Shown: piece by piece, positions 8,649 through 25,222 of the stretch | Layout: every line of letters begins with the position of its first letter | How positions within the stretch are numbered: the stretch's first letter is position 1 | Origin: Longimicrobiales bacterium | GTDB lineage: Bacteria; Gemmatimonadota; Gemmatimonadetes; Longimicrobiales; Gaopeijiaceae | Direction of reading: 5' to 3' | Length of the DNA stretch: 64,000 nucleotides | Assembly (NCBI GenBank): GCA_951813395.1 | Contig: OX638356.1 | Coordinates: 1,095,340 to 1,159,339, forward strand | Notes under the pieces: generated by a model | What the model saw: only the letters and a program-made list of their open reading frames with translations | Told to the model about the DNA's origin: nothing | The model's database searches: none | Made by a program: the position numbers and the translations under genes

Positions 8649-9767
8649 ATGAACGAGAGACTTACGCTCCGAGTACTTGGCGAGATCATGGATTGGTCGG
8701 ATTCGAAGGCGACCAAGGAGTTTCGCTGGCTAAGACTGGTTTCTCGGATGAAGTATGACGGCTATCAGGACTACCTGGCGGGAGCGCGGTTTATTGAGAG
8801 CCTCGTCGCCTGGATCCAACAATTTCCGACGCCTGACGATCGAGCGACAGCCTATGCCTTTGTTCGAAAGCAACTCGTGTACATCGGTCCATCTGAGATG
8901 CGTCGCTTGGTTGAGCTGTTCTATCCAGACAAGGTTCAGCGGACGCTCCTGCGGTCCGTAGCGGAAACGTGCGGAATCCCCCCCTATCGAGTCTGGGCCT
9001 CAACCGAGGCCACCGCTCACTATGAGCGACTGCTCCGCCAGACCCTCTTCATCGGCCTGAGCGACGGGGCTCGACTAGACCTTTTCCGACGTGCCAACAC
9101 CGGTGTGATCAGCAACGAGCAGGTCGTCGTTGCTACGCACATCGATGAGGAGAAGTGGGAGGAGCTTCTCAAGAAGCTCCGGTGCGCGCACGGTCAGGCA
9201 CCTGATGCTGGCTTCAAACTGGTCTACCTCATTGACGATTTCGTTGCAACCGGCACAACCTTCATTCGCAAGCATTCAGAGTCAGGCGCTTGGAAAGGTA
9301 AACTGGCGAAATTCCACAAGGCCATCAGCCCGGATTCACCGTTCGAGGAGGACTTTCGAATCTGCGTGCACCACTACATCGCGCTCCATGACGCCGTGGA
9401 CAAGCTCGAACAAAAGCATGCGCAAGCACTCGAAGAGCTCGGTCCGGCTAAGTGGTTTCCGAACGTGCATTTCAGCTTCGGCACGATTCTGCCTGAACAT
9501 CTACCGATCGACAAATCGGCAGACGTCGAGGCGCGGACGTTCGTTGACGTCGCTCACCGCTACTATGATCCAGACGTGGAGAACGAACACACAAGCGAGG
9601 GAGGAACCGACATGCGATTAGGATTCGGGCGCTGTGCAGTGCCGCTGATCCTCGAGCACAACACGCCGAACAACTCCGTAAGCCTGTTATGGGCCGAAAC
9701 CAGTGGTACGGGGGACGGGGCGCATCGGATGCGCCCCCTCTTCCGTCGGCGGCATCGCCACTCATAG
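8649..9767 (+). CDS. Phosphoribosyltransferase-fold protein (PRTase-CE-like)
   Basis: 372 aa, ATG 7 bp after the previous stop. The type I PRPP-binding motif is V192-YLIDDFVATGTT, with the two acidic residues D196 and D197 and the T-G-T-T loop intact. The N-terminal 100 residues are helical (FRWLRLVSRMKYDGYQDYLA, VRKQLVYIGPSEMRRLVELF), which I recall from the PRTase-CE family predicted to act in prokaryotic conflict systems. It is not a standard purine or pyrimidine salvage enzyme, which would be about 180 aa. The reaction probably uses PRPP or a ribose phosphate; base and product are unknown. It lies in an operon with a SIS-HAD fusion upstream and an ORC-like ATPase 27 bp downstream. Confidence 0.8.
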   Translation: MNERLTLRVLGEIMDWSDSKATKEFRWLRLVSRMKYDGYQDYLAGARFIESLVAWIQQFPTPDDRATAYAFVRKQLVYIGPSEMRRLVELFYPDKVQRTLLRSVAETCGIPPYRVWASTEATAHYERLLRQTLFIGLSDGARLDLFRRANTGVISNEQVVVATHIDEEKWEELLKKLRCAHGQAPDAGFKLVYLIDDFVATGTTFIRKHSESGAWKGKLAKFHKAISPDSPFEEDFRICVHHYIALHDAVDKLEQKHAQALEELGPAKWFPNVHFSFGTILPEHLPIDKSADVEARTFVDVAHRYYDPDVENEHTSEGGTDMRLGFGRCAVPLILEHNTPNNSVSLLWAETSGTGDGAHRMRPLFRRRHRHS

Positions 9768-9794
9768 GGGCTAACCTACGGCGCGGATGTAACG

Positions 9795-11487
9795 ATGAAT
9801 AACCCATTCGAGAAGAGAGCTAGCGAATACTTTCGTGACGACGAGTCCTTTCTCGCCATCGTAAGTCCGGAGCCTGTCACAACCTATCTTAAGCGGTACG
9901 CAGAGTCGGGCCGTCTCTACGATCGCTTGGTCCTCATGCGCGGTGCGCCTGGTAGCGGAAAAACCACGATCGCTCAGCTGTTCGAATACCACCGCATCGC
10001 GGCTCTACTCCGACATGAGGGAGTCCAGGCATACAAGCCGCTTATGGCAGCGCTCGCGGAATGCGATGCCATCGTGGACAATGTGCCATGTCTGGTGGGT
10101 TGCCGCATTGCGATGGAGAGCGGTTACAGGGACGTCTGGGAGTTTCCGTATCCCGAAGACCTCCGAACCGGACTCCTCGCATCGCTTATCCAAGCGCGGG
10201 CAGTGCTTGGCTGGCTCCGCAACCTCGAGAAGAGTGGAATCTGCCTTTCGCAAGTGAGTGTGATTCCGCGGGGTCCAGACACAGCCGCACTTCGTGCCAT
10301 CGGTGGCGTCAGTGGGCGCTCCGTACTCAAACGGGCGAGGGCAGTGGAATACGAATTGTACGGAATCGCGGCGGCACTCATCCCTCCAGATGTATCCGAG
10401 CTCAGGAGCGGGACGATCAAAGCCTATCATCCGTTTGATGTAATCGAGGCCCTTGAAGTACAATTGAGTCCGCCGGTCCCGGCAGGTAACGTGCTTCGTC
10501 TGCACCCTCTGGTCATCATGGACGATGCGCAGACGCTGCACCCGCTGCAATTCTCCCAGCTGGAAGCGTGGCTTACTCGCCGGGAGCTACGCGTCGCCCG
10601 CTGGGTCCTGAGTTGGCTAGACGTGGTCGCTCCCCAAGAGGTCCTTTCAGCGCGACGCGAGGACGACGCAGATCGGCCAGAGCAACCAGGAATCGACCCT
10701 GACCGAGTGGCCACGAGAATCTATCTGCAAAGCGGATACACGGATCGGAAAAAGGAACGGCGCGCGTTCCGAAAGACGGCCAAGGACATGGCCAATCGCT
10801 ATCTCCAGCAAATGCCTCTGTTCGCCAACCGCGGTATCCAACGCTTCGAGAACCTGCTCCTGGAAGGTGTTGAGGTACCGTCCAAGACTGTTCTCGCGAG
10901 ACTGACAGAGCGCAATGAGCGGGAGCGTATAGCTCTTGGGGTCGGTCACATGCGCTTGAGGGCGCTCGAAGGAGCAGTGGATCGCTACTTGGCTTCCAGC
11001 AGGAGCAATGACCTGACGCCGGATCTGCGGCTCGCGATGGTTAGGATCCTGATGCACCGTTATGTCAATCGCGTACCCCAAGCCAGTCTCTTCAGCGAAA
11101 ACAGGGATCCGGAACCTGCGCGGCCAGTTGTCGCGAACAGTGGAGTGGCGGAAGGCGCTCGTGTCCACCTGCTGCACGATCATGATCGGCCATTCTACTA
11201 CGGCATGGACACCCTGTGCGATGCGGGGACAGAGAACGCAGAGCAGTTCCTCCGCCTCGCCGCAGCCCTCGTAGAACGGGCATCTACTCAGTTAACCCGT
11301 GCCAAATCGGCAACCTTGTCTGCGGCCACTCAGCACAAGGAACTGCGGCGGCGTGCGAAGAGGATGCTGGACGCATGGTCATTCCCAAGCCACGAGTCAG
11401 TGCGCCGTCTCATCGACGGGATCGCGAAGCGCTGTGTCCTCGAGTCCCTCACCAAGAACGCTTGGCTGAATGCCGGGGCCCCCTCTC
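9795..11487 (+). pseudogene. ORC/CDC6-like AAA ATPase, N-terminal part (cut by IS3 element)
   Basis: ATG 9795 starts MNNPFEKRASEYFRDDESFL, which I recognise as the start of the family labelled ORC-CDC6 family AAA ATPase. Walker A is G50-APGSGKT and Walker B is V240-IMDDAQ. About 564 codons are intact before the frame enters the IS3 element at 11488. Read-through adds a few element-encoded residues to a stop at 11529-11531. The missing C terminus is found at 13065-13364. Family knowledge: these ATPases sit in predicted anti-phage operons with PRTase and sugar-kinase genes. A truncated ATPase may still be made, but the complete protein is not. Confidence 0.8.
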
Positions 11488-11570
11488 TGCCAACACGCGC
11501 GAGACAGGAGAGGAGAGAGAGATTAGAGTAGGGCGAGGCAGAGAGATGCAGAATGGAACGAGGAGAAGGA

Positions 11571-12002
11571 ATGAAGGTGAACGGAACGCCCCTCTCTTCG
11601 GGGGAGGGCAAGCGAAGCGCGGCAGCCCGGCCGGATCCGGAGGTGTCGGCAAAGGCGACGCGGCGGCGGTTCACGGCGGCGTACAAGCTTTCGATCGTGG
11701 AGAAGGCGGACGCCTGCGATACGCCGGGAGAGATCGGAGAGCTGCTTCGGCGCGAGGGATTGTACAGCTCGCACCTGTCGTCGTGGCGGAAGGCGGCGCG
11801 GGAGGGGTCGCTGCGGAGGCTGGCGAAGAAGCGCGGCCCGAGGCCGTCGGGCGGGAAGCGTGAGGCGAAGAAGGTGCGGAAGCTGGAGCGGGAGAACGCG
11901 CGGTTGCGCGAGGAACTCCGCAAGGCGCGCATCATCATCGATGTCCAGGGAAAAGTTGCGGGGCTGCTGGGTGTGAGCCCCGGGGACGGGAAGCGCTCTT
12001 GA
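11571..12002 (+). CDS. IS3-family transposase OrfA
   Basis: 143 aa from ATG 11571, preceded by GAGGAGAAGG; the ATG at 11553 is less well placed. The N-terminal half is a helix-turn-helix of the IS3/IS911 type (RRRFTAAYKLSIVEKA, LLRREGLYSSHLSSWRKAAR). The C-terminal half is a leucine-zipper-like coiled coil (KKVRKLERENARLREELRKA). It binds the element ends. The stop overlaps the start of orfB (TTGA), allowing coupling or frameshift fusion into OrfAB. Confidence 0.85.
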   Translation: MKVNGTPLSSGEGKRSAAARPDPEVSAKATRRRFTAAYKLSIVEKADACDTPGEIGELLRREGLYSSHLSSWRKAAREGSLRRLAKKRGPRPSGGKREAKKVRKLERENARLREELRKARIIIDVQGKVAGLLGVSPGDGKRS

Positions 12003-13036
12003 GCGCGGCCGGAGGCTTGGCCGGGCACGTGGGCGTACGCGCGGCATGCAAGGCCCTCGGGGTTGCGCGCGCCACGTTCTACCGTCGCCGGAGGCCGAAG
12101 ACCGGGCAGCGGCAGCCCCGGCCGGCTCCTGCCCGGGCCCTGGACGCGACGGAGCGGGCGGAGGTCTTTCGTGCGCTGTGCTCGCCGCGCTTCGCGGATC
12201 GTGCTCCGGCGGAAGTGTACGCGACGCTGCTGGACGAGGGCGTCTATCTGTGTTCGGAGCGGACGATGTACCGGATCCTGGCCGAGAAGGAGGCGGTCCG
12301 CGAGCGCCGGGCTCAGCGCAGCCATCCCAACCACCCGAAGCCCGAGGTGGTGGCCAGGGCACCCAACGAGGTGTGGTCCTGGGACATCACCCGGCTGCTG
12401 GGGCCGCAGAAGTGGCAGTACTTCCATCTGTACGTGATCCTGGACATCTACAGCCGCTACGCCACCGGATGGATGGTGGCGGAGCGCGAGACCGCCGGCC
12501 TGGCCGGACACCTGGTTGGCGAGACGTGCCTCAAGCACGGTGTGCAGCCCCGGGTGCTCACGCTGCACTCGGACCGGGGAGCTCCCATGACGGCCAAGTG
12601 CACGGCGCAGCTCCTGGCCGACCTCGGTGTCACGCAATCGCTGGCCCGCCCCAGGGTCTCCAACGACAACCCCTACTCGGAGGCGCACTTCAAGACTCTC
12701 AAGTACCACCCGGGCTTCCCGGGTCGCTTCGGCAGCATCGCCGACGCGAAGGACTTCTGCCGGGAGTTCTTCCAGTGGTACAACACCCAACACCGGCACG
12801 GCGGCATCGGCCTGCTCACCCCCGAGCAGGTCCACCTCGGCCGCGCCCTCGAGGTGATCGAGCACCGGCAGAACGTACTGGCCGCGGCCTACGCCGCCCG
12901 GCCCGACCGCTTCGTGGGAGGCCCGCCGAGGGCTGTGAAACTCCCGGAGGAGGTCTGGATCAACCCCGCACTCCCCGTCACGGCGGTCGATGGCGCAGAG
13001 TCGGCCAACGGGGGAAAGGAGGGCTCGCTAAACTGA
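11999..13036 (+). CDS. IS3-family transposase OrfB (DDE integrase core)
   Basis: 345 aa from TTG 11999, overlapping orfA by 4 bp. An N-terminal HTH_21-like segment ([10 protein letters not shown]) precedes the retroviral-type integrase core. The DDE residues are visible in [20 protein letters not shown] and [13 protein letters not shown]. The length and triad are complete, so the element looks capable of encoding an active transposase. The 60 residues after the E extend past the usual end and run almost to the right inverted repeat. Confidence 0.88.
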
Positions 13037-13064
13037 ATCGGAAAGTGTCTCACAGTCGTTGGCA

Positions 13065-13364
13065 GGTTCCGCCAACGCATTCGGTATACGGCAGAGGGAC
13101 TTCGACTGTGTGCATCGCACGCACCCGGAACTCGCGCGCACGCTCCAGCTCGGCGTCGCTTATAACGCGCTCGCCCTAGTCCCAGACTATCCGTGCAAAG
13201 GGGACAGGTGGAATCTAATCGAGCTCGGAGGGGTTCCGATTCTGAGTTACGGTCTCACCTTCAAGCGGGGCGGGTTCGTTACCAGCACGCCCAGCGAACT
13301 GGGACGCCTGATGGCCGTCGAGCAGGCGCCAGATGGCGGTGCGCTGGCTTGGCGTCAGCGCTGA
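13065..13364 (+). pseudogene. ORC/CDC6-like AAA ATPase, C-terminal part (beyond IS3)
   Basis: About 100 codons directly after the IS3 right end continue the cassette strand. The stretch [20 protein letters not shown] followed by [20 protein letters not shown] matches, from memory, the conserved C terminus of the ORC-CDC6-like ATPases. It lacks its own start and ribosome site (the TTG at 13059 lies inside the IS end). The stop is 19 bp before the next cassette gene, the spacing expected if this is the true end of the interrupted gene. Confidence 0.75.
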
Positions 13365-13383
13365 GGTGCGGAGGTAACCCCAT

Positions 13384-14484
13384 ATGCAGGGACCATGGAA
13401 TCGATGTGTGGATCATCGCGGCCAGCGGGTGCGCGAGTTCGTTGAGGACTACTTCGCGGATGCGTCGCGGCATGTCCTGCTCGTTGCGGGTGCAGGTTTC
13501 GACCCTCGGTCCATCGCGATCGCGACTCTCTTGAATTCGACTCTCCAGTCACGCATGACCGGACTCCTGATCCGAGAGGAGCGCCCAGATTCTGAGCCTC
13601 GTCTCACTACCTTGGCCGAGCGTCACCTTGAGACTCTGTGCGCATCCCTCAAGGACTGTACGGTCAAGCACGTTCAGGTCTTCGATACAGTCGGGGATGG
13701 TACATCGGCACCGGGTCGCCACGTCGTGTCTGGTCGCTACGTCGCGACACTCGCGCAGAGATTGGACTTAGAAGGCATAACCGATGTGGTCGTGGACTTT
13801 AGTGCCCTTTCTGTCGGAACTAGTTTCCCTTTCACTCGGGCTCTACTTATGCGGCTAAGCCAACAGGTAGGGGTTAACTTGCACGCGATGGTAACGCTAA
13901 GTCCATTCACGGACGACAGCATTCTCGCGAGACCGAGCAGCTTTGTTGGCCCCGTGCACGGGTTCCAGGGCCGGTGGGGAATTGATCAAACTGTCCGTGC
14001 GGCCAAGCTTTGGCTACCCCAGTTGCGATTGGGACAGAGACGGGTGCTTGAGGACCTCCACACGATGATTGAACCCGACGACGTGGTTCCCGTCTTGCCG
14101 TTTCCCTCGTACAATCCACGCTTAGCAGATTGCCTAATCGAGCACTACGCTCCTGAAGTGGAAGGACAATGGGCCGTCGACCCACGCAATGTCGTCTTCG
14201 CGGCCGACGGCGATCCTTTGGACTTTTATCGCACCGTCGTGCGGCTGGACGACGTGCGTCGGCCGGTGTTCGAAGGCACGATCGGCTCGCTAATCGTGCT
14301 CTCGCCTCTGGGAGGAAAAGCACTCGCGCTTGGGACGATGATGGCGGCCATTGAGCGGGATCTTCCTGTGATGTACGTGGAGGCACTCGGATACGAACTG
14401 GCGCCCGACGGGCCTACCGCTTTCTCCGATGACGATTTCGTTCACGTCTGGCTATCTGGGGATGCCTATCCCCCGCGCCCATGA
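13384..14484 (+). CDS. Conflict-cassette protein of unknown function, Rossmann-like
   Basis: 366 aa. I do not recognise a named family. The start shows a beta-loop segment (HVLLVAGAGFDPRSIAIATLLN) and the middle another (ITDVVVDFSALSVGTSFPFTRALL). Near the C terminus are FPSYNPRLADCLI, DPLDFYRTVVRLDD and LIVLSPLGGKALALGTMMAA. Alternating beta-strand/helix segments suggest a Rossmann-like alpha/beta protein without membrane segments. It sits 19 bp after the ATPase remnant and overlaps the PfkB kinase by 4 bp (ATGA), so it is translationally coupled to it. Function is inferred only from company: a partner or sensor in the cassette. Confidence 0.75.
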   Translation: MQGPWNRCVDHRGQRVREFVEDYFADASRHVLLVAGAGFDPRSIAIATLLNSTLQSRMTGLLIREERPDSEPRLTTLAERHLETLCASLKDCTVKHVQVFDTVGDGTSAPGRHVVSGRYVATLAQRLDLEGITDVVVDFSALSVGTSFPFTRALLMRLSQQVGVNLHAMVTLSPFTDDSILARPSSFVGPVHGFQGRWGIDQTVRAAKLWLPQLRLGQRRVLEDLHTMIEPDDVVPVLPFPSYNPRLADCLIEHYAPEVEGQWAVDPRNVVFAADGDPLDFYRTVVRLDDVRRPVFEGTIGSLIVLSPLGGKALALGTMMAAIERDLPVMYVEALGYELAPDGPTAFSDDDFVHVWLSGDAYPPRP

Positions 14485-15572
14485 ATGATTCGACGATTCA
14501 TTCTGAGCGGCCCCTGATTCTCGGGACCGGATTGCTGGCGTTAGATGTGATCGTCGGCGCGGATGCTAAGGGGACAGCAACTCTGGCGGCCGGAGGCACC
14601 TGCGGCAATGTGCTTACGGTCCTTAGTTTACTTGGATGGAATGCGTTGCCAATCGCCCGGCTGAATAGGGACGCGGCATATCTCTGGCTGTGCAAAGACC
14701 TAGAGCGATGGGGCGTTTCTCTGAAGTTCGTGGACAGGACCCCAAGGACTCCGACGCCGATCATCGTGCAAAGAAACCAGAAGGACGCGACGCACCGTTT
14801 CTCAATGACATGTCCGGAGTGTGGAACCTGGTTCCCTCGTTTTCGTCCGGTAACTCAAGAAGCAATTAGAGGAATAGTCACTGACCTCCTGGACAGGACA
14901 TCGCCGGGGATGCGACCAGAGGTCTTCTTCTTCGATCGAGTCTCTAGGAGCTCTCTGTTGTTGGCCGAGGCCTCCGCTGCTTCCGGTGCGCTTGTCGTCT
15001 TCGAACCCAGCAGCATTGGGAATCCGCGGCTCTTCTCCGAGGCACTCTCGCACACTCACATCCTGAAGTATTCGCGGACTCAGTTGCGGAATTTCGCTAC
15101 GCGTGATCTTCGGGACGACGGACTCTGGCTGGAGATCGAGACGCTCGGGTCAAACGGTTTCCGCTACAGAGCTAGAGAGTTCTTCGGGATGAGATGGCAC
15201 CACGTGCCCGCCATTTCAATTGCGACAATCGCGGACACATCCGGAGCGGGTGACTGGTTTATTGCAGCGTTTCTTGAGCGCGTCGGACGGTGGGGGGCGG
15301 TCGGACTGGAGGAGGTCGGTAGGGGCTCCCTTGAAGAGGCTCTCTCCTTTGCTCGCACGCTTGCCACGCTCGCCTGCAAGTACGAGGGTGCGCGGGGGGC
15401 AATGTACGCGACCGAGGAGGGCGCGCCTATTGAGGAGTTCAAGTCACTGATCGGTGTAGCAGGTCCTCTCCGCCCCCCACAGGCTCCGTGCTCGCAGGCG
15501 ACCAAACCGCTAAAGAGCCTTCTGAGCGTACTGTGCTCCGGATGCGCCAGTCAGGTGAGAGCGCCCAGTTAG
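14481..15572 (+). CDS. PfkB/ribokinase-family sugar or nucleoside kinase
   Basis: 363 aa, ATG overlapping the previous stop. The N terminus carries the glycine-rich PfkB start (LILGTGLLALDVIVG, LAAGGTCGNVLTVLSLLGW). The C-terminal signature is D252-TSGAGD258, with D258 the expected catalytic base. An unusual CPECGTWFPRF insertion near residue 114 and a CSGC near the end could bind a metal. The family phosphorylates ribose, fructose-6-phosphate or nucleosides with ATP. With the PRTase, SIS and HAD domains upstream, the operon holds kinase, phosphatase and PRPP-transfer chemistry. Last gene of the cassette; the hairpin repeat follows 43 bp later. Confidence 0.82.
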   Translation: MNDSTIHSERPLILGTGLLALDVIVGADAKGTATLAAGGTCGNVLTVLSLLGWNALPIARLNRDAAYLWLCKDLERWGVSLKFVDRTPRTPTPIIVQRNQKDATHRFSMTCPECGTWFPRFRPVTQEAIRGIVTDLLDRTSPGMRPEVFFFDRVSRSSLLLAEASAASGALVVFEPSSIGNPRLFSEALSHTHILKYSRTQLRNFATRDLRDDGLWLEIETLGSNGFRYRAREFFGMRWHHVPAISIATIADTSGAGDWFIAAFLERVGRWGAVGLEEVGRGSLEEALSFARTLATLACKYEGARGAMYATEEGAPIEEFKSLIGVAGPLRPPQAPCSQATKPLKSLLSVLCSGCASQVRAPS

Positions 15573-17029: not shown

Positions 17030-17797
17030 TCATGACCCTGGTCCCGCGTTCTCGGCGTGCTCGGCCGAGACTGCCCGGGAGGCAGTCGGGTGGATGGCCT
17101 TGGAGAGCTGAACGTGGCGGCGCATCCGGTAGCTGTTGCCGCGGATGTTGACGATGTGGCAGCGGTGGAGCAGCCGGTCCAGCAGTGCGGCGGCCATGAC
17201 CTCGTCGTGCAGGATCTCTCCCCACTGCTCGAAGCCCTTGTTCGAGGTGACGACGGTCGAGGCATGCTCGTAGCGGCGGTTGACGAGCTGGAAGAACAGG
17301 ATGGCGCCGCTGCGGGTGACCGGGAGGTAGCCGATCTCGTCCACGACCAGGAGCGCGGGGTGGGTGAGGGTCTTGAGGCGGTGGTTGAGCCGTCCGGCGG
17401 CCTGGCTCCCCGCCGGCAGGCGCATGTTCGAGACGTTGTAGCGTGCTCTTGCCGGCCAGCGGCAGCCCTTCCGGCGTCCCTCGAGCTTGTCGGCCAGCAG
17501 GGCCAGCAGCGGGTCGTGACACAGATCGTCGTGGTCGTTGATATCCTCGTAGCCCAGGGCAATGCTGGTGATGCGTTGCGCCAACAGGGTCCGCAGGGCG
17601 TGTACCCTGAGCCGGGGGTCGCGGTGATCGGTGAAGCACGCGGCCACCCGGTCGAAGAGTCCGACAAGGCGATCGATCTCCCGCAGCAGCAGCGCTCCGG
17701 CGTTCGACGTGATCGACCCGCCGTCGAATGCGGCGGTTATCCGGCGGCGCTGGAACCCTTGAAATCGGAAGGATAGCGGCTTACACTGTGTCGGCAT
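17030..17797 (-). pseudogene. Chimeric remnant: IS1380 transposase start joined to IS21 istB end
   Basis: One open frame of 255 codons (ATG 17797 after GGGAGGACAG) joins two unrelated transposition genes. Residues 1 to about 110 are the start of an IS1380-family transposase (ITAAFDGGSITSNAGALLLR, ALGYEDINDHDDLCHDPLLA). Residues from about 140 are the C-terminal half of IstB (HPALLVVDEIGYLPV with Walker B, VVTSNKGFEQWGEILHDEV, HIVNIRGNSYRMRRH). Between them the IS1380 signature LAGKSTLQRLE continues in another frame at about 17424-17462, so the fused frame is accidental there. Neither half is functional alone: IstB lacks Walker A and the IS1380 part lacks its DDE core. Confidence 0.8.
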
Positions 17798-17872
17798 CTG
17801 TCCTCCCGTGTGGCTGTGGTTAAGTTGCTGGCACAACTGAACTTAACAGCCTCCAGACGCCGGTGTCGTCTT

Positions 17873-18197: not shown

Positions 18198-20803
18198 TCA
18201 TTGAAGCGTAGACCGAACACTATTCGCCCACTGAGTGATCGACACCCCGGACTCCCAGATCTCTGGTGGAACTTCGTATCGAAGCGCCGACTCATTGCGG
18301 ATCCCGACATCGAGCGTTGTTGCGACCTCCACCCATTCATACGTGTCCCGTACAGTGCCGCCAATATCCGACACAAGCTTCGCCAACGGATCCACACGGT
18401 CAGTAGTCCATTCCCTCTCTAGATCGGCTTTCGATAGGTGACGGAGGTCCACGACACACAGGACGTACCGTCTCGGCATCTGCGATGCCTTTTCTGCTTG
18501 CATCGGTGTCAGCCGGGCCCGGCCTGTCGTCGTCGCCTTCACCTCCACAAGGTACGGTCCAACCTCGAACGAGCTTCCCCCATCCTGGATCACGTCATCG
18601 ACCGGGAAATCCACTTCGTAGTCGAAACCTCTATCCACGAGCTTCACTCGCAGGTCATGACGCTTCAGGGCATCGCCAACCGCTTGTTGGACGGCAAGCC
18701 CCAAGTTCCTGCATCGCGCCACGGTGCGTTTCCTCTGTCGCTTCTCTTCGACATCTGCTGCCAGTGCCGTGTATAGCTCTGGATTCGGACCAGCGGTCTC
18801 CACCAATCCCGCGAGGCTATCGCGCAATTCCTGACGCTCCTCCTCGTCTTGGACCATGCCAATCAGACGAAGCTCCAACTGGTCAAAGCCAAAACACTCG
18901 CTCAGTAGGTGGATTGCGTCATCGTTATCCTGCAACCAGGCCGGATCTAGTACGTCCTTAAGCGTAGCCGCGTTGGCAACCACCTTCTGGAGCTTTCCAT
19001 CCTCCCCTGGTTGTGGCACCCATGCGCGTCCCTTTAGATCCGCTAGCCACAGAGCACCTCGAATTTTGATCTCCACGTCCTCGCCCGACTTCCTTCCCCT
19101 TGCCCTTCGCCACTCCCTCCACGATTGGTCACGTCGTGCCACGTCGCACAAGACGAGACCGAGGAGCGCACGCGCTTGCTCAATCCCCTCCTGGCAGCGA
19201 TTGAGCACTTCAGGGGCTAGAAGCGAAATCTGACTTAACGTCTGTTCGCGGACTACGATACCAGTTGCATCGACCCCACTCAGCGCAGCGAGGCGTCGTT
19301 CTGTTAACTCGGCAACAAGCTTGTTGGCAATTGGGTCGTTGAACGCAATCCCCCACGCTTCTAGTGCTACAGAGACATCCGGGATGCCCTCATTCTCAGA
19401 ACCGGCGTATAGATCATCCAGGACACGAGTCCGTGGGTACGCATCCGAGAACGGTTGGGCTGACTCTGGCCAAACGGGCACCGGACCCATGAACAGGCGG
19501 TTAGTACTCCATCGACCCGGACGACCGCTCAACGTGACCAGCGGAACGTTCCTGGCAATGACCGCCCCGTCGTGCGCTTTGGATTCCCAAAGATGAGCGA
19601 GAAACCGAACTGCACCGCGCTGGATGTCGAGACCACCAGCATTGAGCTCCCTATCTTCGGGTAGCCTCTCACTCATGTATTTCACGGCGTCCGAGAGGAC
19701 CTGGTCTTCCGTAATAGATGTGGGAATGGCTTGCTCCAATGCCGTCGCCAAATCGTCCAGTTTACCAGAACGAGCCAACTCCTTGAATCCGCTGAGAAGA
19801 AGTTGGTCACGGATATCATATGACATGCTCTTGCAGATGTCCTTGAGCCGCTCCGTAACGTCTTCGTCACGCTTCAGTTGTGGGGGAGAACGTAGGTATT
19901 CGTTCTGGTTTGGAATCATGCCCCGAAGAGGAGACAAGTCGACACCGGACCGTCGCCGCCAGCATTCGCCCACGATGTCTAAGAAACGTGCTAACCAATC
20001 CTGCCGGTCTCCCTGAACTTCAAGCTCCTCAAGTCGCTCTGCTTTGCCACGAACGCGTGCTGCGAGCTCGGCAACGCAGATGCCCTGAATGTCAACACCC
20101 AACGAACTCCACTTCTCGGCGATGGTGGTCCAGTCCGACGCCAGCTCTTGATGCGGAGGCAGAAGGTGATCACTGGCCTCCGCCAACGGCCATAATCGAG
20201 CAACGCTTGTTTCATGCGGTCCCTTTGCGTCCAACAACCGGGGAATAATGAAGTCAGCAGACGCGCCTTCGTCGCTCACTGCTGGCAGGAACTGCGATCC
20301 GCAGTCGACGATCGGGATGTCCGCAAGTCGCTTCGCGAATGCTGCGAGGTGATCTCGCCACCAGTCCTTCTCTTCGTCACTCGTCGTATCGAACGCCGTG
20401 TTGGCGGGCGCCGTGTATGCGAGCCAGTGTGCATCCCTCCATTTCTGGCCGATGGCATACTGCACACCGACCACCGCAGCTGAGAACGCCTGCTCAAGCA
20501 GGTTCCTATCGTTGGGACTCATCAATAGGCGGCTACGTTCCTCGTCGGGATCGAATTTACCGTCCAGTATGAAGTGCACTGGCACGAACCCAGAGGATCG
20601 GAGCGGGTACTCACGAAACACTCGTGGCGCGTCGGGCTCCGGCAGGCAGACCCGGTAGCCGTTCGGCGTCTTCTCAACGATGACGAGAGCTGAGGCGGAC
20701 GCGCCGGAGGCGGCGGCGAAGCGGTAGACGCAGAGCTCACGTTGCGGAGATTCTCTTCCAGTCACAGTGATCACGCGGCGCTCCAGGTAGCCGTTCGTGG
20801 TCG
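18198..20803 (-). pseudogene. Sacsin-type ATPase/DUF3883 nuclease protein, C-terminal 868 codons (split by IS21)
   Basis: This is the larger part of a gene whose N terminus is at 23648-24344. The frame runs from the IS21 junction (KATTNGYLERRVITVTGRES) to the stop at 18198. Most of it is an unrecognised helical region. The end is a DUF3883-like PD-(D/E)xK domain: GFDYEVDFPVDDV, then PYLVEVKATTTGRARLTPMQ with the E-x-K pair, and YVLCVVDLRHL. Joining both parts through one copy of the 8-bp duplication restores a single frame of about 1100 aa. Family knowledge: sacsin-like ATPases fused to nuclease domains occur in prokaryotic defence loci. Read-through into IS21 gives extra codons before 20812, but no normal start exists. 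Confidence 0.8.
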
Positions 20804-20811
20804 CCTTCCGT
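20804..20811. repeat. IS21 target-site duplication, left copy
   Basis: CCTTCCGT directly abuts the left end of the IS21 element and recurs at 23648-23655. Keeping one copy restores the frame of the split sacsin/DUF3883 gene exactly. Confidence 0.9.
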
Positions 20812-21203
20812 TGTCCAGCGACAATCAAGATGAGAACGTTGCGACAATCAAGGTGAGAACGAGGGGTCGCGACGCTACGAGAGGGAAGACGATGGTGGTT
20901 TGGGGGACGCGGAGCAAGCGGATGGGGGACGGTGGGGTGAGCGAGACGGTGGGCAAGCGTCGGCCAGCAGCGGGGACTTGAGGGGTCGGCCACCGCCGCG
21001 GCACGGCGAGCGTAGCGAGCCGGGACGGGGCGGTTGAGGGCGGATTCTCCGAGGGGTAGAGGTAGGGTGAAGCCTGCCCGGCGGCCTCTGCGGGCGGGTT
21101 CTCGGGCCTTTTCGAGCCGGATTGTCCGGAACCGGCCCGTCCTGCCCCGGATTCGGCGGTTCGAGGGCTCCTCGATGCGCCCTTGGACGGCTCTGGGCCC
21201 GCG

Positions 21204-22022
21204 TCAGCCCGATTCCTGTCCTCCCTCGTGCTTCTCGTCAGCCGGCTCCCGCGCCGCTGCCTGCCTGGCTGCGATGGCGGCCCGGCGCCTGTAGCTCTCG
21301 ACGTTGAGTTCGAAGATGTGGGAGCGGTGGACGAGGCGGTCGACGGCGGCCAGCGTCATGGCGTCGCCGCCGAAGATCCTGCCCCAGGCGCTGAAGGGCT
21401 CGTTGGCGATCACCAGGAGCGAGCGGTTCTCGTAGCGCGCGCCGATGAGTTCGAAGAGCACGCTGGTCTCCGCACTCTCCGAGGTCACGTAGGAGAAGTC
21501 GTCGAGGATGAGCAGATGATACTTGTGGAGCTTGCGGATGGCTCCTTCGAGGGCGAGGTCCCGGCGCGCCGCCTGGAGCTTCTGGACCAGGTTCGCCGTG
21601 CGCTGGTAGAGCACCCGGAACCCGTTCTCGACGAGCCTCAGCCCGAGACCCGCGGCCAAGTGGCTCTTTCCCGTTCCGGGCGGGCCGAAAAGAAGTACGT
21701 TTGCGCCCTCCTCGAGCCAGGTGTCGCCGCTCGCCAGGACTCCCACGCGCGCCTTTGACACCGCGGGCACGAGGGTGAAGTCGAAGTTGTCGAGCGTCTT
21801 GCCCGGCGGCAGCTTCGCCTCGGCCCGGTGCCGCTCGAAGCGCCGCCGCTCGCGGTCGGTGACCTCCTGGCTGGCCAGCGCGGCGAGCAGGCGCGCCGCC
21901 GGCCAGCCCTCCCGGTCGGCACGCTCGCTGAAGCTGCGCCACAGCGTGCGCATGGTCGGCAGCCGCAGCTGCTTCAGCAGCAGGTCGAGTTGCGGCGGGT
22001 CCACGACGAATCGCTCGCTCAT
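21204..22022 (-). CDS. istB: IS21 helper ATPase IstB
   Basis: 272 aa. The N-terminal helical region (LDLLLKQLRLPTMRTLWRSF) is followed by a DnaC-like AAA+ domain. Walker A is NVLLFGPPGTGKSHLA, Walker B is HLLILDDFSYV, and the C-terminal strand is HIFELNVESYRRR. It assists the IstA transposase and target selection. The start overlaps the end of istA by 4 bp (ATGA), the usual istAB arrangement. It differs clearly from the istB remnants at 3.1 and 17.1 kb, so at least two IS21 lineages have visited this locus. Confidence 0.93.
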   Translation of the reverse strand: MSERFVVDPPQLDLLLKQLRLPTMRTLWRSFSERADREGWPAARLLAALASQEVTDRERRRFERHRAEAKLPPGKTLDNFDFTLVPAVSKARVGVLASGDTWLEEGANVLLFGPPGTGKSHLAAGLGLRLVENGFRVLYQRTANLVQKLQAARRDLALEGAIRKLHKYHLLILDDFSYVTSESAETSVLFELIGARYENRSLLVIANEPFSAWGRIFGGDAMTLAAVDRLVHRSHIFELNVESYRRRAAIAARQAAAREPADEKHEGGQESG

Positions 22023-23536
22023 GAGAGTCCTCCGGCGGCAAGGGCGGGGGAGCCGAAGTCATCGTAGTCCGCCACGGGCGGCAGGGCCATGCCGATATCC
22101 GGGATGCCGTCCGGCTTCGGCGGGAAGCGCTTGCGCAGGAGCTCCGGATCGGGGAGTTCCCCGGCATCGAGTCCCCGGTCGATCTCGTCCGCCAGCCGGG
22201 CTTCGCAGCAGTGGTCGTGGGCCAAGGCGAGCAGGTCCACCATCCGGCGGCAGGCCTGACGGTCGTCCAGACCCTCGCGCAGCGCGTCAAAGGCGCGGCG
22301 GTAGGCGTCGCGGGGGAACAGACCGTCGCGGTGGACCCAGTTCAGCAGCGCCATCGGCTTGCGCCTGAGCGACGGCAGCACATGCCGGTAGTTGACGACC
22401 CGCCCGCGCCGCCCTCCCGGGCCCGCGTGGCCCCGCGGCAGCGTCACGAGTTGCTCCGTGCCCGCATACACCACCAGCCGGTCGTCGTACAGCCGCACCC
22501 GCAGCCGGTGTCCCACCAGACGCGAGGGCACCGTGTAGAACACCCGGCGCAGCGAGAAGCCGCCCGTACTCGTCACCCGCACCAGCGTCTCCTCGAAACC
22601 GTCGCTGCGCCGCCCCGGCAGCGCCCCCAGCACCGCCCGCTCCGCGTCGATCTTCTCCCGGTTGCGGGCGTTGCGGCGGCTCACCACACGGGCCAGGAAC
22701 GCCCGGTACGCCCCGATCGTCTCGAAGTCGGGCGAGCCCCTCAGCAGCAGCGCGTCCCCGAGCGCCCGCTTCAGGTGCCCGTGCGGGCCCTCGATCGAAC
22801 CGTTCTCGTGCGCCCGGCCCCGGCTGTTCCGGCTTCCCGACATCCCGTAGTCCTCCAGCAGCGCCTCATACCGCGCCGTCAGATCCTCCCGCGCCTCGCG
22901 CTTCAGGTTCCTGAACGCCGCCGACAGACTGTCCGTCCGGTGCTCCTTCGGGACCCCGCCCAGCGCCCACAGCGCGTCCTGCAGCCCCTCGGCCAGCGCC
23001 ACGTAGCTCTCCCCGCCCAGCACCACCGCCGCATGGCAGAACCCCGAGTACTCCAGCCGGAAGTGGTACAGCTTGTGCGCCAGCGGCGCCCCGGCCACCG
23101 TCACGCCCAGCGCCCCGGCGTCGGTGAAGTCCGACAGGCCCCGGCGCCCCGGCTCGTGCTTCTGCCGGAACATGATCTCCTGCTCCGGCCCGTGCCTCGC
23201 CTTCCACGCCCGCACCCGCCGCTCGACCGTCCGCCGAACTCCGGGGTGAAGCTCCGGATGCCGGCGCATCATCTCGTCGTACAGCGCCACCGCCCGCAGT
23301 CCCGGGCTCGCCTCCAGCAGCGGTACGATCTCCTCCTCGAAGATCCCCGCCAGCGGATCCGGGCGCCTCCGCCCCCGCCCCTTCCTCTTCTCCGACGGCC
23401 GTCCGGCTTCCGCTTCGATCCGGTACGCCGTCGCCGTGCTGAACCCCGCCTTCGCCCCTGCCAGCGCGGGGCGGTCCTTCTTCCGGTGCGTCATGTAGAG
23501 CTCCATCTGGTGGTCCGTGATGTGTCGGCCCGGCAC
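22019..23536 (-). CDS. istA: IS21 transposase IstA (DDE)
   Basis: 505 aa. It has an N-terminal helix-turn-helix region (KAGFSTATAYRIEAEAGRPS) and a retroviral-type integrase core. Acidic residues are visible in GRRGLSDFTDAGALGV, VPKEHRTDSLSAAF and NGSIEGPHGHLKRAL, consistent with an intact DDE triad. A C-terminal Mu-type beta domain follows (RVFYTVPSRLVGHRLRVRLY). Length is normal for the family. First gene of the istAB operon, reading leftward. Confidence 0.93.
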   Translation of the reverse strand: MPGRHITDHQMELYMTHRKKDRPALAGAKAGFSTATAYRIEAEAGRPSEKRKGRGRRRPDPLAGIFEEEIVPLLEASPGLRAVALYDEMMRRHPELHPGVRRTVERRVRAWKARHGPEQEIMFRQKHEPGRRGLSDFTDAGALGVTVAGAPLAHKLYHFRLEYSGFCHAAVVLGGESYVALAEGLQDALWALGGVPKEHRTDSLSAAFRNLKREAREDLTARYEALLEDYGMSGSRNSRGRAHENGSIEGPHGHLKRALGDALLLRGSPDFETIGAYRAFLARVVSRRNARNREKIDAERAVLGALPGRRSDGFEETLVRVTSTGGFSLRRVFYTVPSRLVGHRLRVRLYDDRLVVYAGTEQLVTLPRGHAGPGGRRGRVVNYRHVLPSLRRKPMALLNWVHRDGLFPRDAYRRAFDALREGLDDRQACRRMVDLLALAHDHCCEARLADEIDRGLDAGELPDPELLRKRFPPKPDGIPDIGMALPPVADYDDFGSPALAAGGLS

Positions 23537-23647
23537 TTGGCGTCTCTCCGCTCCAAGGGAAAAACACCAAACTTCGCGCCGGCCGCGGCCACCTCCGCTC
23601 TCTCACCCTGATTGTCGCTGGCTTCTCATCCTGATTGTCGCGCTACA

Positions 23648-23655
23648 CCTTCCGT
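23648..23655. repeat. IS21 target-site duplication, right copy
   Basis: CCTTCCGT, identical to 20804-20811, immediately after the ACA end of the IS21 element. Confidence 0.9.
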
Positions 23656-24344
23656 TCTGCTTTCGACGGTTCCCACGTCTCGTGGTCACTTGCGTCTCGA
23701 AGCTCGACACGGCCCAGAGCCCTCCGGGTTGCGTACAAGTACGGCAGAGCGCGCTTCAGTTCGTTTAGTCCGTATGCCCAGGAATCGCCTTCACCGTAGG
23801 CGTACTCGAACAGTGCTGATGGCACTTGGGCCGGATCTGATACGCGCAGGGCCGCGCGAATGGCCTCGTTGGAGTCTCGGATATTGTCCAAGATCGTGTC
23901 TTCATCACCCCCTCGCTCCAGTGTCAAATCAAAGCGTTCAAGACCGGTTGCTACCTGTAGGAGGCCGCGGAGGCGCGTTCGGTCGGCAAGAACGTGGGTC
24001 ACCAAAAAACCCGTGCCGAAGCGACCTGTAGTGGTCTCCGACTCGTACTCCTTGCTTGAACCGCCGGAGAGCAGGGCTGCCAGTTCCTGTGACGTGAAGG
24101 GAGCACCATCGTGTTCGAATACGATTCTCGTAGGCTTGCGGCTGAGCCGAATCCAGACTACCGAGCGGCCATCACGAGGCCCAGCGTCAAGGGCGTTCTG
24201 CAGCAATTCGAATGGCCAGCGAATGCTCGCGGAATGCGGGCTCTTACGGGCCTGATCAACACGCGTACGGATTCGCCGGGCCAGACTGCGAGAATGCTGC
24301 TCCTTCAGAGCCTCTTCGAACATCTCGTAGGCCTTCTTACTCAT
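23648..24344 (-). pseudogene. Sacsin-type GHKL ATPase domain, N-terminal part of the split DUF3883 gene
   Basis: It starts at ATG 24344 (MSKKAYEMFEEALKEQHSRS). A GHKL ATPase fold of the sacsin/Hsp90 kind follows: N-box RWPFELLQNALDAG near residue 43, G1 motif VFEHDGAPFT, and G2-like TTTGRFGTGFLVTHVL. The frame is native up to KAERK at the IS21 boundary and then reads a stop inside the element. The first base of the next codon is supplied by the duplication and the rest by 20803-20802. The start overlaps the end of the upstream small gene, so the two were probably translated together. Confidence 0.85.
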
Positions 24345-24636
24345 CTACGCCATCCTTGCAGGCGGCATTGGTCGGGTGGCAAAAGCGTCGAGAGCGCGGA
24401 CGTGACCGAGGAGGACTCAATCGCCTCTCCTGACGACTGTCTTCACTCCAGACCTCGCCGAGCCCGTCTGGAATCGCGCGGCGCATCGCGAACTCGTACT
24501 GCTCACGAGCATTGCTTGGCGTTTCGTTGGGTGCCACGGCCGGGAGGTCTTTCGGCTTGACGGGACGCTTCTTGCCCCCATCCTTGGCGAGTGGCAGATC
24601 CGCACTGTTGTCCCACAAGATGCCCTGCCGAGGCAC
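24337..24636 (-). CDS. Defence-island protein of unknown function, probably 5'-degraded
   Basis: 99 aa from a GTG at 24636. The frame is open a little further upstream (SSDPSNYYRVPRQGILWDNS), and a stop at about 24700 cuts it, so it may be a remnant of a longer gene. It contains DLPAVAPNETPSNAREQYEF and a charged tail. No family recognised. Its stop overlaps the start of the sacsin-type gene by 8 bp (ATGAGTAA), which argues that it was a real upstream partner in that operon. Confidence 0.45.
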   Translation of the reverse strand: MPRQGILWDNSADLPLAKDGGKKRPVKPKDLPAVAPNETPSNAREQYEFAMRRAIPDGLGEVWSEDSRQERRLSPPRSRPRSRRFCHPTNAACKDGVDE

Positions 24637-24833: not shown

Positions 24834-25164
24834 TCATCGGTTTTCCCCTTCCAGCAATTCGATGATTTGTTTATCGGCTGTCGTCGCCATTGCGATAGCC
24901 CTTTCGCGCGCGTCAAGCGCGGCGGTCACCGTCTCTAGCAAGCCTGCCGGCTTCTCCGTGTCGTCTGGTAGCGGGATTCGTAAGTCAGCCACATGCGGCG
25001 GCTCCAAATGCTGCTGCACGGTTCCGTATTCATTCCTCCGCAACTGATCCTGTCCAGAGGGACTCCGCAGAAACGCAAATACCAACGCGCGGAGTTTGGG
25101 GTCGTCCACCCAGACCCGGATCAGATCGTCACTAAGGATCTTCCCTGCCAACATGGTCCCAACG
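24834..25164 (-). pseudogene. Type I restriction specificity subunit (HsdS-like), C-terminal fragment
   Basis: About 110 codons remain, ending at 24834. The reading (AGKILSDDLIRVWVDDPKLR, then FLRSPSGQDQLRRNEYGTVQ, HLEPPHVADLRIPLPDD) and the final long helix (LETVTAALDARERAIAMA) match the end of a target-recognition domain and the conserved coiled coil of HsdS. The 5' part is missing: the sequence stops at the inverted repeat of the IS3 element at 25165, and no hsdS sequence appears beyond the element's other end. No hsdM or hsdR is in the window. Confidence 0.75.
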
Positions 25165-25222
25165 TGGAGTTGCCCCGCTATGACGGACACCTTTCCATTT
25201 GGGCCAACCAAGGAGGTGTGCC

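Follow-up and report, generated by a model that had tools for sequence, protein, structure and literature searches.

The PADLOC models named TmtA describe what we take to be the gene of the Tiamat system. Tiamat itself is a known defence system of Millman et al. 2022, cited in PMC12926258; defence hotspots in Pseudomonas islands include it (PMC12629846), and its mechanism is unknown according to PMC10482375.

A tmtA-like gene was found, in two pieces, in the 64-kb stretch of DNA analysed here (called 'the window', that is, the whole stretch), which belongs to a Gemmatimonadota genome made of one contig of 4.09 Mb. The N-terminal half of the gene matched the TmtA model PDLC03967 (1063 positions) from position 6 to 230, with 128.8 bits, and the C-terminal half matched it from 259 to 585 and from 854 to 1060, with 146.1 bits for the whole half; intact relatives matched over their whole length, with 494 to 614 bits, all these values being bit scores as such, not set against PADLOC's own hit cut-offs. 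Other PADLOC models gave weaker GHKL matches to the N part than PDLC03967. Similarity to TmtA extends along both halves and the intact relatives, and the neighbours are not conserved, as befits a single-gene system. By sequence comparison, the window gene is a broken member of this catalogued family, and its domain layout is not new, since the family to which it belongs is already described (PADLOC TmtA, Tiamat). An earlier, sequence-only reading had seen here a defence-type gene with a layout that could be that of a stand-alone effector: the defence type (Tiamat) and the stand-alone status were retained. We consider it likely that the locus is an IS21-interrupted, Tiamat-type (TmtA) single-gene anti-phage system with an ATP-gated C-terminal nuclease.

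A tmtA-like gene split by an IS21 element

Table 1. Features of the interrupted gene and of the inserted element (coordinates in the window)
Feature	Position	Strand	Evidence or remark
N-terminal part of tmtA-like gene	23648..24344	-	GHKL/sacsin-type ATPase; NCBIfam P_loop_sacsin and PADLOC TmtA PDLC03967
C-terminal part of tmtA-like gene	18198..20803	-	transducer-like region, long middle region, nuclease-like end
Predicted PD-(D/E)xK domain	18201..18713	-	AlphaFold model, VIA-align to Hjc 2wcw, alignment A5
Complete IS21-family element, 2836 bp	20812..23647	-	full copies in this genome: 1
IstA transposase	22019..23536	-	NCBIfam NF033546 (transpos_IS21), 206.7 bits (cut-off 160)
IstB helper ATPase	21204..22022	-	PF01695, 200.8 bits; NF038214 (IS21_help_AAA), 256 bits (cut-off 200)
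8-bp target-site copy ACGGAAGG (minus-strand reading), 5' side	23648..23655
8-bp target-site copy ACGGAAGG (minus-strand reading), 3' side	20804..20811

The two gene halves, which the sequence-only reading had placed at 24344-23648 and 20803-18198, were recovered at exactly these positions (Table 1). The N-part ORF (24344-23643, minus strand, 233 codons) terminates at a TAG located inside the IS end (23643-23645), and the other flank of the 2836-bp element is the long minus-strand ORF terminating at 18198. When the flanks were joined in a script, recreating the empty site, a single open frame of 1100 codons plus stop was obtained, with no internal stop and with the junction ...KAERKATTNGY...; this is the frame of about 1100 codons, with this very junction, that had been predicted upon removal of IS21 and of one copy of the duplication. 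The insertion point corresponds to the end of the ATPase part, ahead of the transducer-like strands. Third-codon GC of the tmtA-like gene is 0.63, well under that of the IS (0.91 to 0.92) and of a flanking gene (0.78).

The inserted element has the features of the IS21 family: IstA and IstB, both above their cut-offs; TG...CA termini with repeats, two GCGACAATCA per end, at offsets 6 and 29 at both ends; and a short target duplication, ACGGAAGG (CCTTCCGT on the plus strand), 8 bp long and directly outside both ends. These results confirm a complete IS21 with an exact 8-bp duplication, as first read. ACGGAAGG occurs five times in the 64-kb window, both strands counted, and the two copies exactly at the IS21 ends are therefore not due to chance.

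The insertion fits a recent arrival, because the two halves are still open and because other genomes of the genus contain the same IS, in copies or fragments 82 to 96% identical, with only one full copy here. The fact that the genome has only one full copy could also be taken to mean that the element is an assembly artefact, or is present in part of the population only, the gene being intact in most cells. Such an explanation is scarcely credible: the genome is a single contig, the element is complete, has exact ends and is flanked by an 8-bp duplication, and the same IS exists elsewhere in the genus, at the identities given above. We thus retain a genuine insertion.

Predicted domains of the protein

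Profile, motifs and fold match identify the N part as a sacsin-type GHKL ATPase, in agreement with the initial proposal. NCBIfam P_loop_sacsin (NF047352) matched residues 42-124 with 64.4 bits (cut-off 50), and three motifs, the N box ELLQNALDA, HDG and GRFGTGFLVTH, are all conserved in the intact relatives. The Pfam HATPase models came just under their cut-off, and Pfam SACS was below its own (18.1 compared to 32.8). A full-length structural model was made for an intact relative, P0003, in place of the joined window protein. Its mean pLDDT was 54.3, with values mostly of 70 to 90 from residue 40 in the N-terminal region and mostly below 50 in the middle region, which the model shows as mainly helical. 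For the N-terminal region, the best fold match was sacsin SR1 (Z 13.6, rmsd 4.2, 178 residues); TRAP1, topoisomerase VI-B and GyrB were on a par with it (Z 12 to 13). Searches of PDB sequences with P0003, the C-domain profile or the N part returned nothing useful.

The C-terminal domain was modelled with AlphaFold using the window's own last 228 residues and five relatives. The model (mean pLDDT 75.4, pTM 0.69) presents, in order, a helix, three strands, a helix and a strand, that is, the alpha-beta-beta-beta-alpha-beta core of PD-(D/E)xK enzymes, with D and (D/E)xK predicted to lie on the sheet. In VIA-align, the top rank went to resolvases of the archaeal Hjc type (2wcw, Z 10.1, rmsd 3.1, 112 residues), and the homing endonuclease I-Ssp6803I came next, ahead of the SPARDA nuclease subunit (Z 8.6) and PvuII (Z 7.1); Foldseek agreed, with modest E-values (best 5e-3). 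The codons of the motif are found in the window at 18623 (D), 18545 and 18539 (E and K of EVK) and 18500 (Q of TPMQ), and all six sequences of alignment A5, window copy included, share the residues numbered D88, E114, K116 and Q129 in the model. The predicted fold of the domain is that of PD-(D/E)xK enzymes, with archaeal Hjc as the nearest structure; the PD-(D/E)xK-like end suspected at the outset is supported by both the predicted fold and the invariant D/ExK/Q.

A further acidic residue in helix 1, expected of Hjc-type members and not of the whole superfamily, is missing from the window copy: the Glu present in all five relatives is replaced by Gln (CAA, codon at 18689). Because of this replacement, the window nuclease might be weak even if it were uninterrupted. 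The same Gln, together with two plasmid relatives that keep the ATPase and the middle region without this domain (see below), would also suit a C-terminal domain that binds nucleic acids or acts as a scaffold without cutting, as part of an ATPase-driven conformational chaperone or sensor system. We find this unlikely, given that the motif keeps its D, E, K and Q in all six domain-bearing sequences, including that of the window. A nuclease is the reading that we prefer, and this predicted end is the one informative feature of the broken gene. It is also the feature that could matter, as the D/ExK/Q motif, the Hjc-like fold and the existence of intact relatives would permit a simple mutational test.

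A relation of the C-terminal part to DUF3883, termed a novel REase domain (PMC3710099), had been part of the original proposal. NOV_C/DUF3883 (PF13020) scored 14.5 bits on the window protein and 14.3 to 16.2 bits at the same place in four relatives, all under the gathering cut-off of 22.1. An hhalign comparison of the C domain with NOV_C gave a probability of 28.7% and an E-value of 0.0006, with only 42 columns aligned. Because NOV_C was below its cut-off throughout and the profile comparison was weak, the domain was filed under PD-(D/E)xK. These profiles are only suggestive, compatible with a distant relation and too weak to establish membership; in the fold search, Hjc-type resolvases ranked first. 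The genome's only NOV_C/DUF3883 match above cut-off (L001, 1501-1761) is the end of an SNF2-type helicase protein, HmaA-like according to PADLOC and far from the window.

Relatives and genomic neighbourhood

Five whole relatives span the same positions in full. Four are single ORFs of 1084 to 1133 aa: P0003 and P0011, from two same-genus genomes, P0006, from Rhodothermales, and P0007, from Candidatus Poribacteria; in the fifth, P0008, from Candidatus Multivorans thiocomprendens, homology begins inside a 1262-aa ORF. The window halves are collinear with all five, at identities of about 34 to 38% (N) and 27 to 31% (C). Relatives in which each half is a gene of its own would speak against one gene split in two; none was found, the whole relatives all being single ORFs, and the two-gene objection therefore fails. 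In addition, both halves match one TmtA model in order.

It could still be imagined that the halves function separately, as an N-terminal 233-aa ATPase and a C-terminal 931-aa ORF starting from GTG 20993 in the IS end, given that both parts are open throughout and that the C frame continues into the IS end. This is highly improbable: apart from the single-ORF organization of the whole relatives found, the cut parts the ATP-binding domain from its transducer-like part. We therefore keep to a single interrupted gene; as the insertion ends the N part at 233 residues and parts it from the nuclease, the defence system is probably off.

Clear members were found in four genomes of the genus, two intact and two broken, the latter by IS21 here and by truncation in G033, a single-contig genome. 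In G033, the gene (L014, 8873-10660) is limited to the first 400 codons or so, 69% identical to P0003, and is followed by unrelated sequence. Two intact and two broken copies in a genus fit a rapid loss of defence genes. None of 22 other genomes of the genus has the flanking DNA at 13384-15572, which left no orthologous site without the gene for comparison.

No plasmid relative was found with the window C half, while intact P0003 matched two cyanobacterial plasmids, of Dolichospermum (L029, 7890-11018) and Calothrix (L030, 7800-11006), and gave one partial match in Priestia. The two cyanobacterial relatives keep the ATPase and the middle region, part of which matches twice, and have a different C-terminus without the nuclease motif. 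As these two show, the nuclease end is not universal in the family; the conservation of ATPase and middle region without it suggests that the C-terminal effector is exchangeable, or that there is a second mode of action. Neither the phage records nor the viral contigs searched contained a relative.

No conserved neighbour was found among loci L012, L013, L024, L027, L028, L029 and L030. The intact copy at L012 adjoins DUF2326/HNH genes matching PDC-M68 candidate defence genes; by eye, the neighbour at L027 is an ORF beginning like another GHKL ATPase and that at L024 a transposase-like ORF; L028 has unrelated genes, and integrase or TIR genes are near the cyanobacterial plasmid relatives. The small ORF upstream of the window gene (24337-24636), which might have been a constant companion of intact homologues, has no relative in any intact locus, and was ruled out as a partner gene. 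Since neighbours differ from locus to locus and this ORF is not conserved, the tmtA-like gene stands alone. On its upstream side it adjoins an HsdS-like fragment (24834-25164); a CARF gene also lies in the window, further off. These neighbours, like the PDC-M68 candidates at L012 and the TIR gene near a plasmid relative, speak in favour of a defence system, and the surroundings look like a defence neighbourhood in decay.

Other elements of the window deserve mention. The HsdS-like fragment is cut at 25164 by an IS3-type element, the imperfect ends of which, TGGAGTTGCCCCGC / TGGAGCTACCCCGC, are at 25165 and 26557; it has no clear target duplication. Downstream, a hybrid ORF (17030-17836, minus strand) joins in frame the N-terminal part of a DDE_Tnp_1_4 transposase and the C-terminal part of an IstB, and is what remains of two insertion elements. 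What may be a second conflict cassette, at 8649-15569 on the plus strand, comprises PRTase-CE (PF24390), an ORC-CDC6-like ATPase (PF24389), an unknown ORF, a triple-CARF protein (PADLOC CARF6, 309 bits) and a PfkB-family kinase; the adjacency of CARF and a PfkB-type kinase is noteworthy.

Proposed mode of action and comparison with known systems

ATPases of the HSP90 type dimerise when they bind ATP, and nucleases of the Hjc type work as dimers. The intact protein, of about 1100 residues, would begin with an HSP90/sacsin-like GHKL ATPase and a transducer-like domain, continue with a long and mainly helical middle, and end in a Hjc-like PD-(D/E)xK nuclease domain. We infer that a phage product or a DNA state may be sensed by the middle and ATPase regions; ATP-dependent closure of an N-terminal dimer would pair two C-terminal nuclease domains, and these would cut DNA, either that of the phage or, in an abortive response, that of the host. 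Pairing by closure is the simplest reading, because both the ATPases and the nucleases of these types dimerise. Extended to this branch of Tiamat, this becomes an HSP90/sacsin-type ATP clamp gating a same-chain Hjc-like nuclease, with an exchangeable C-terminal effector: the nuclease in the relatives from Gemmatimonadota, Poribacteria and Rhodothermales, and another C-terminus in cyanobacterial plasmids. We propose this generalization tentatively, with somewhat less than even confidence. If true, an ATP-clamp-gated nuclease would be a directly testable mechanism for Tiamat, listed without a known one (PMC10482375).

Compared with known systems, the C-terminal domain resembles Hjc-type resolvases by its helix-strand-strand-strand-helix-strand core, its D and ExK motif and a Z score of about 10; it differs from them by its inclusion in a large ATPase protein, by Gln in place of the helix-1 Glu, and by a sequence identity of 9 to 18%. 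With NOV_C/DUF3883, the ExK, the following T and the helix can be aligned, but every score is below the curated cut-off. The N part shares with sacsin/SACS and HSP90-type GHKL ATPases a Bergerat-type ATP-binding fold and motifs, sacsin SR1 being the best fold match; unlike sacsin, no DnaJ or HEPN domain was found, and a nuclease-like end is in its place. As for Tiamat, the window copy departs from PDLC03967 in being split by IS21, and its identity to the intact relatives found is only about 27 to 38%; other PADLOC TmtA models (1302 to 1782 positions) match mainly the ATPase region. With PDLC03967 it has in common the GHKL ATPase start, the single gene and a length of about 1060 to 1130 aa, and its two halves match this model in order.
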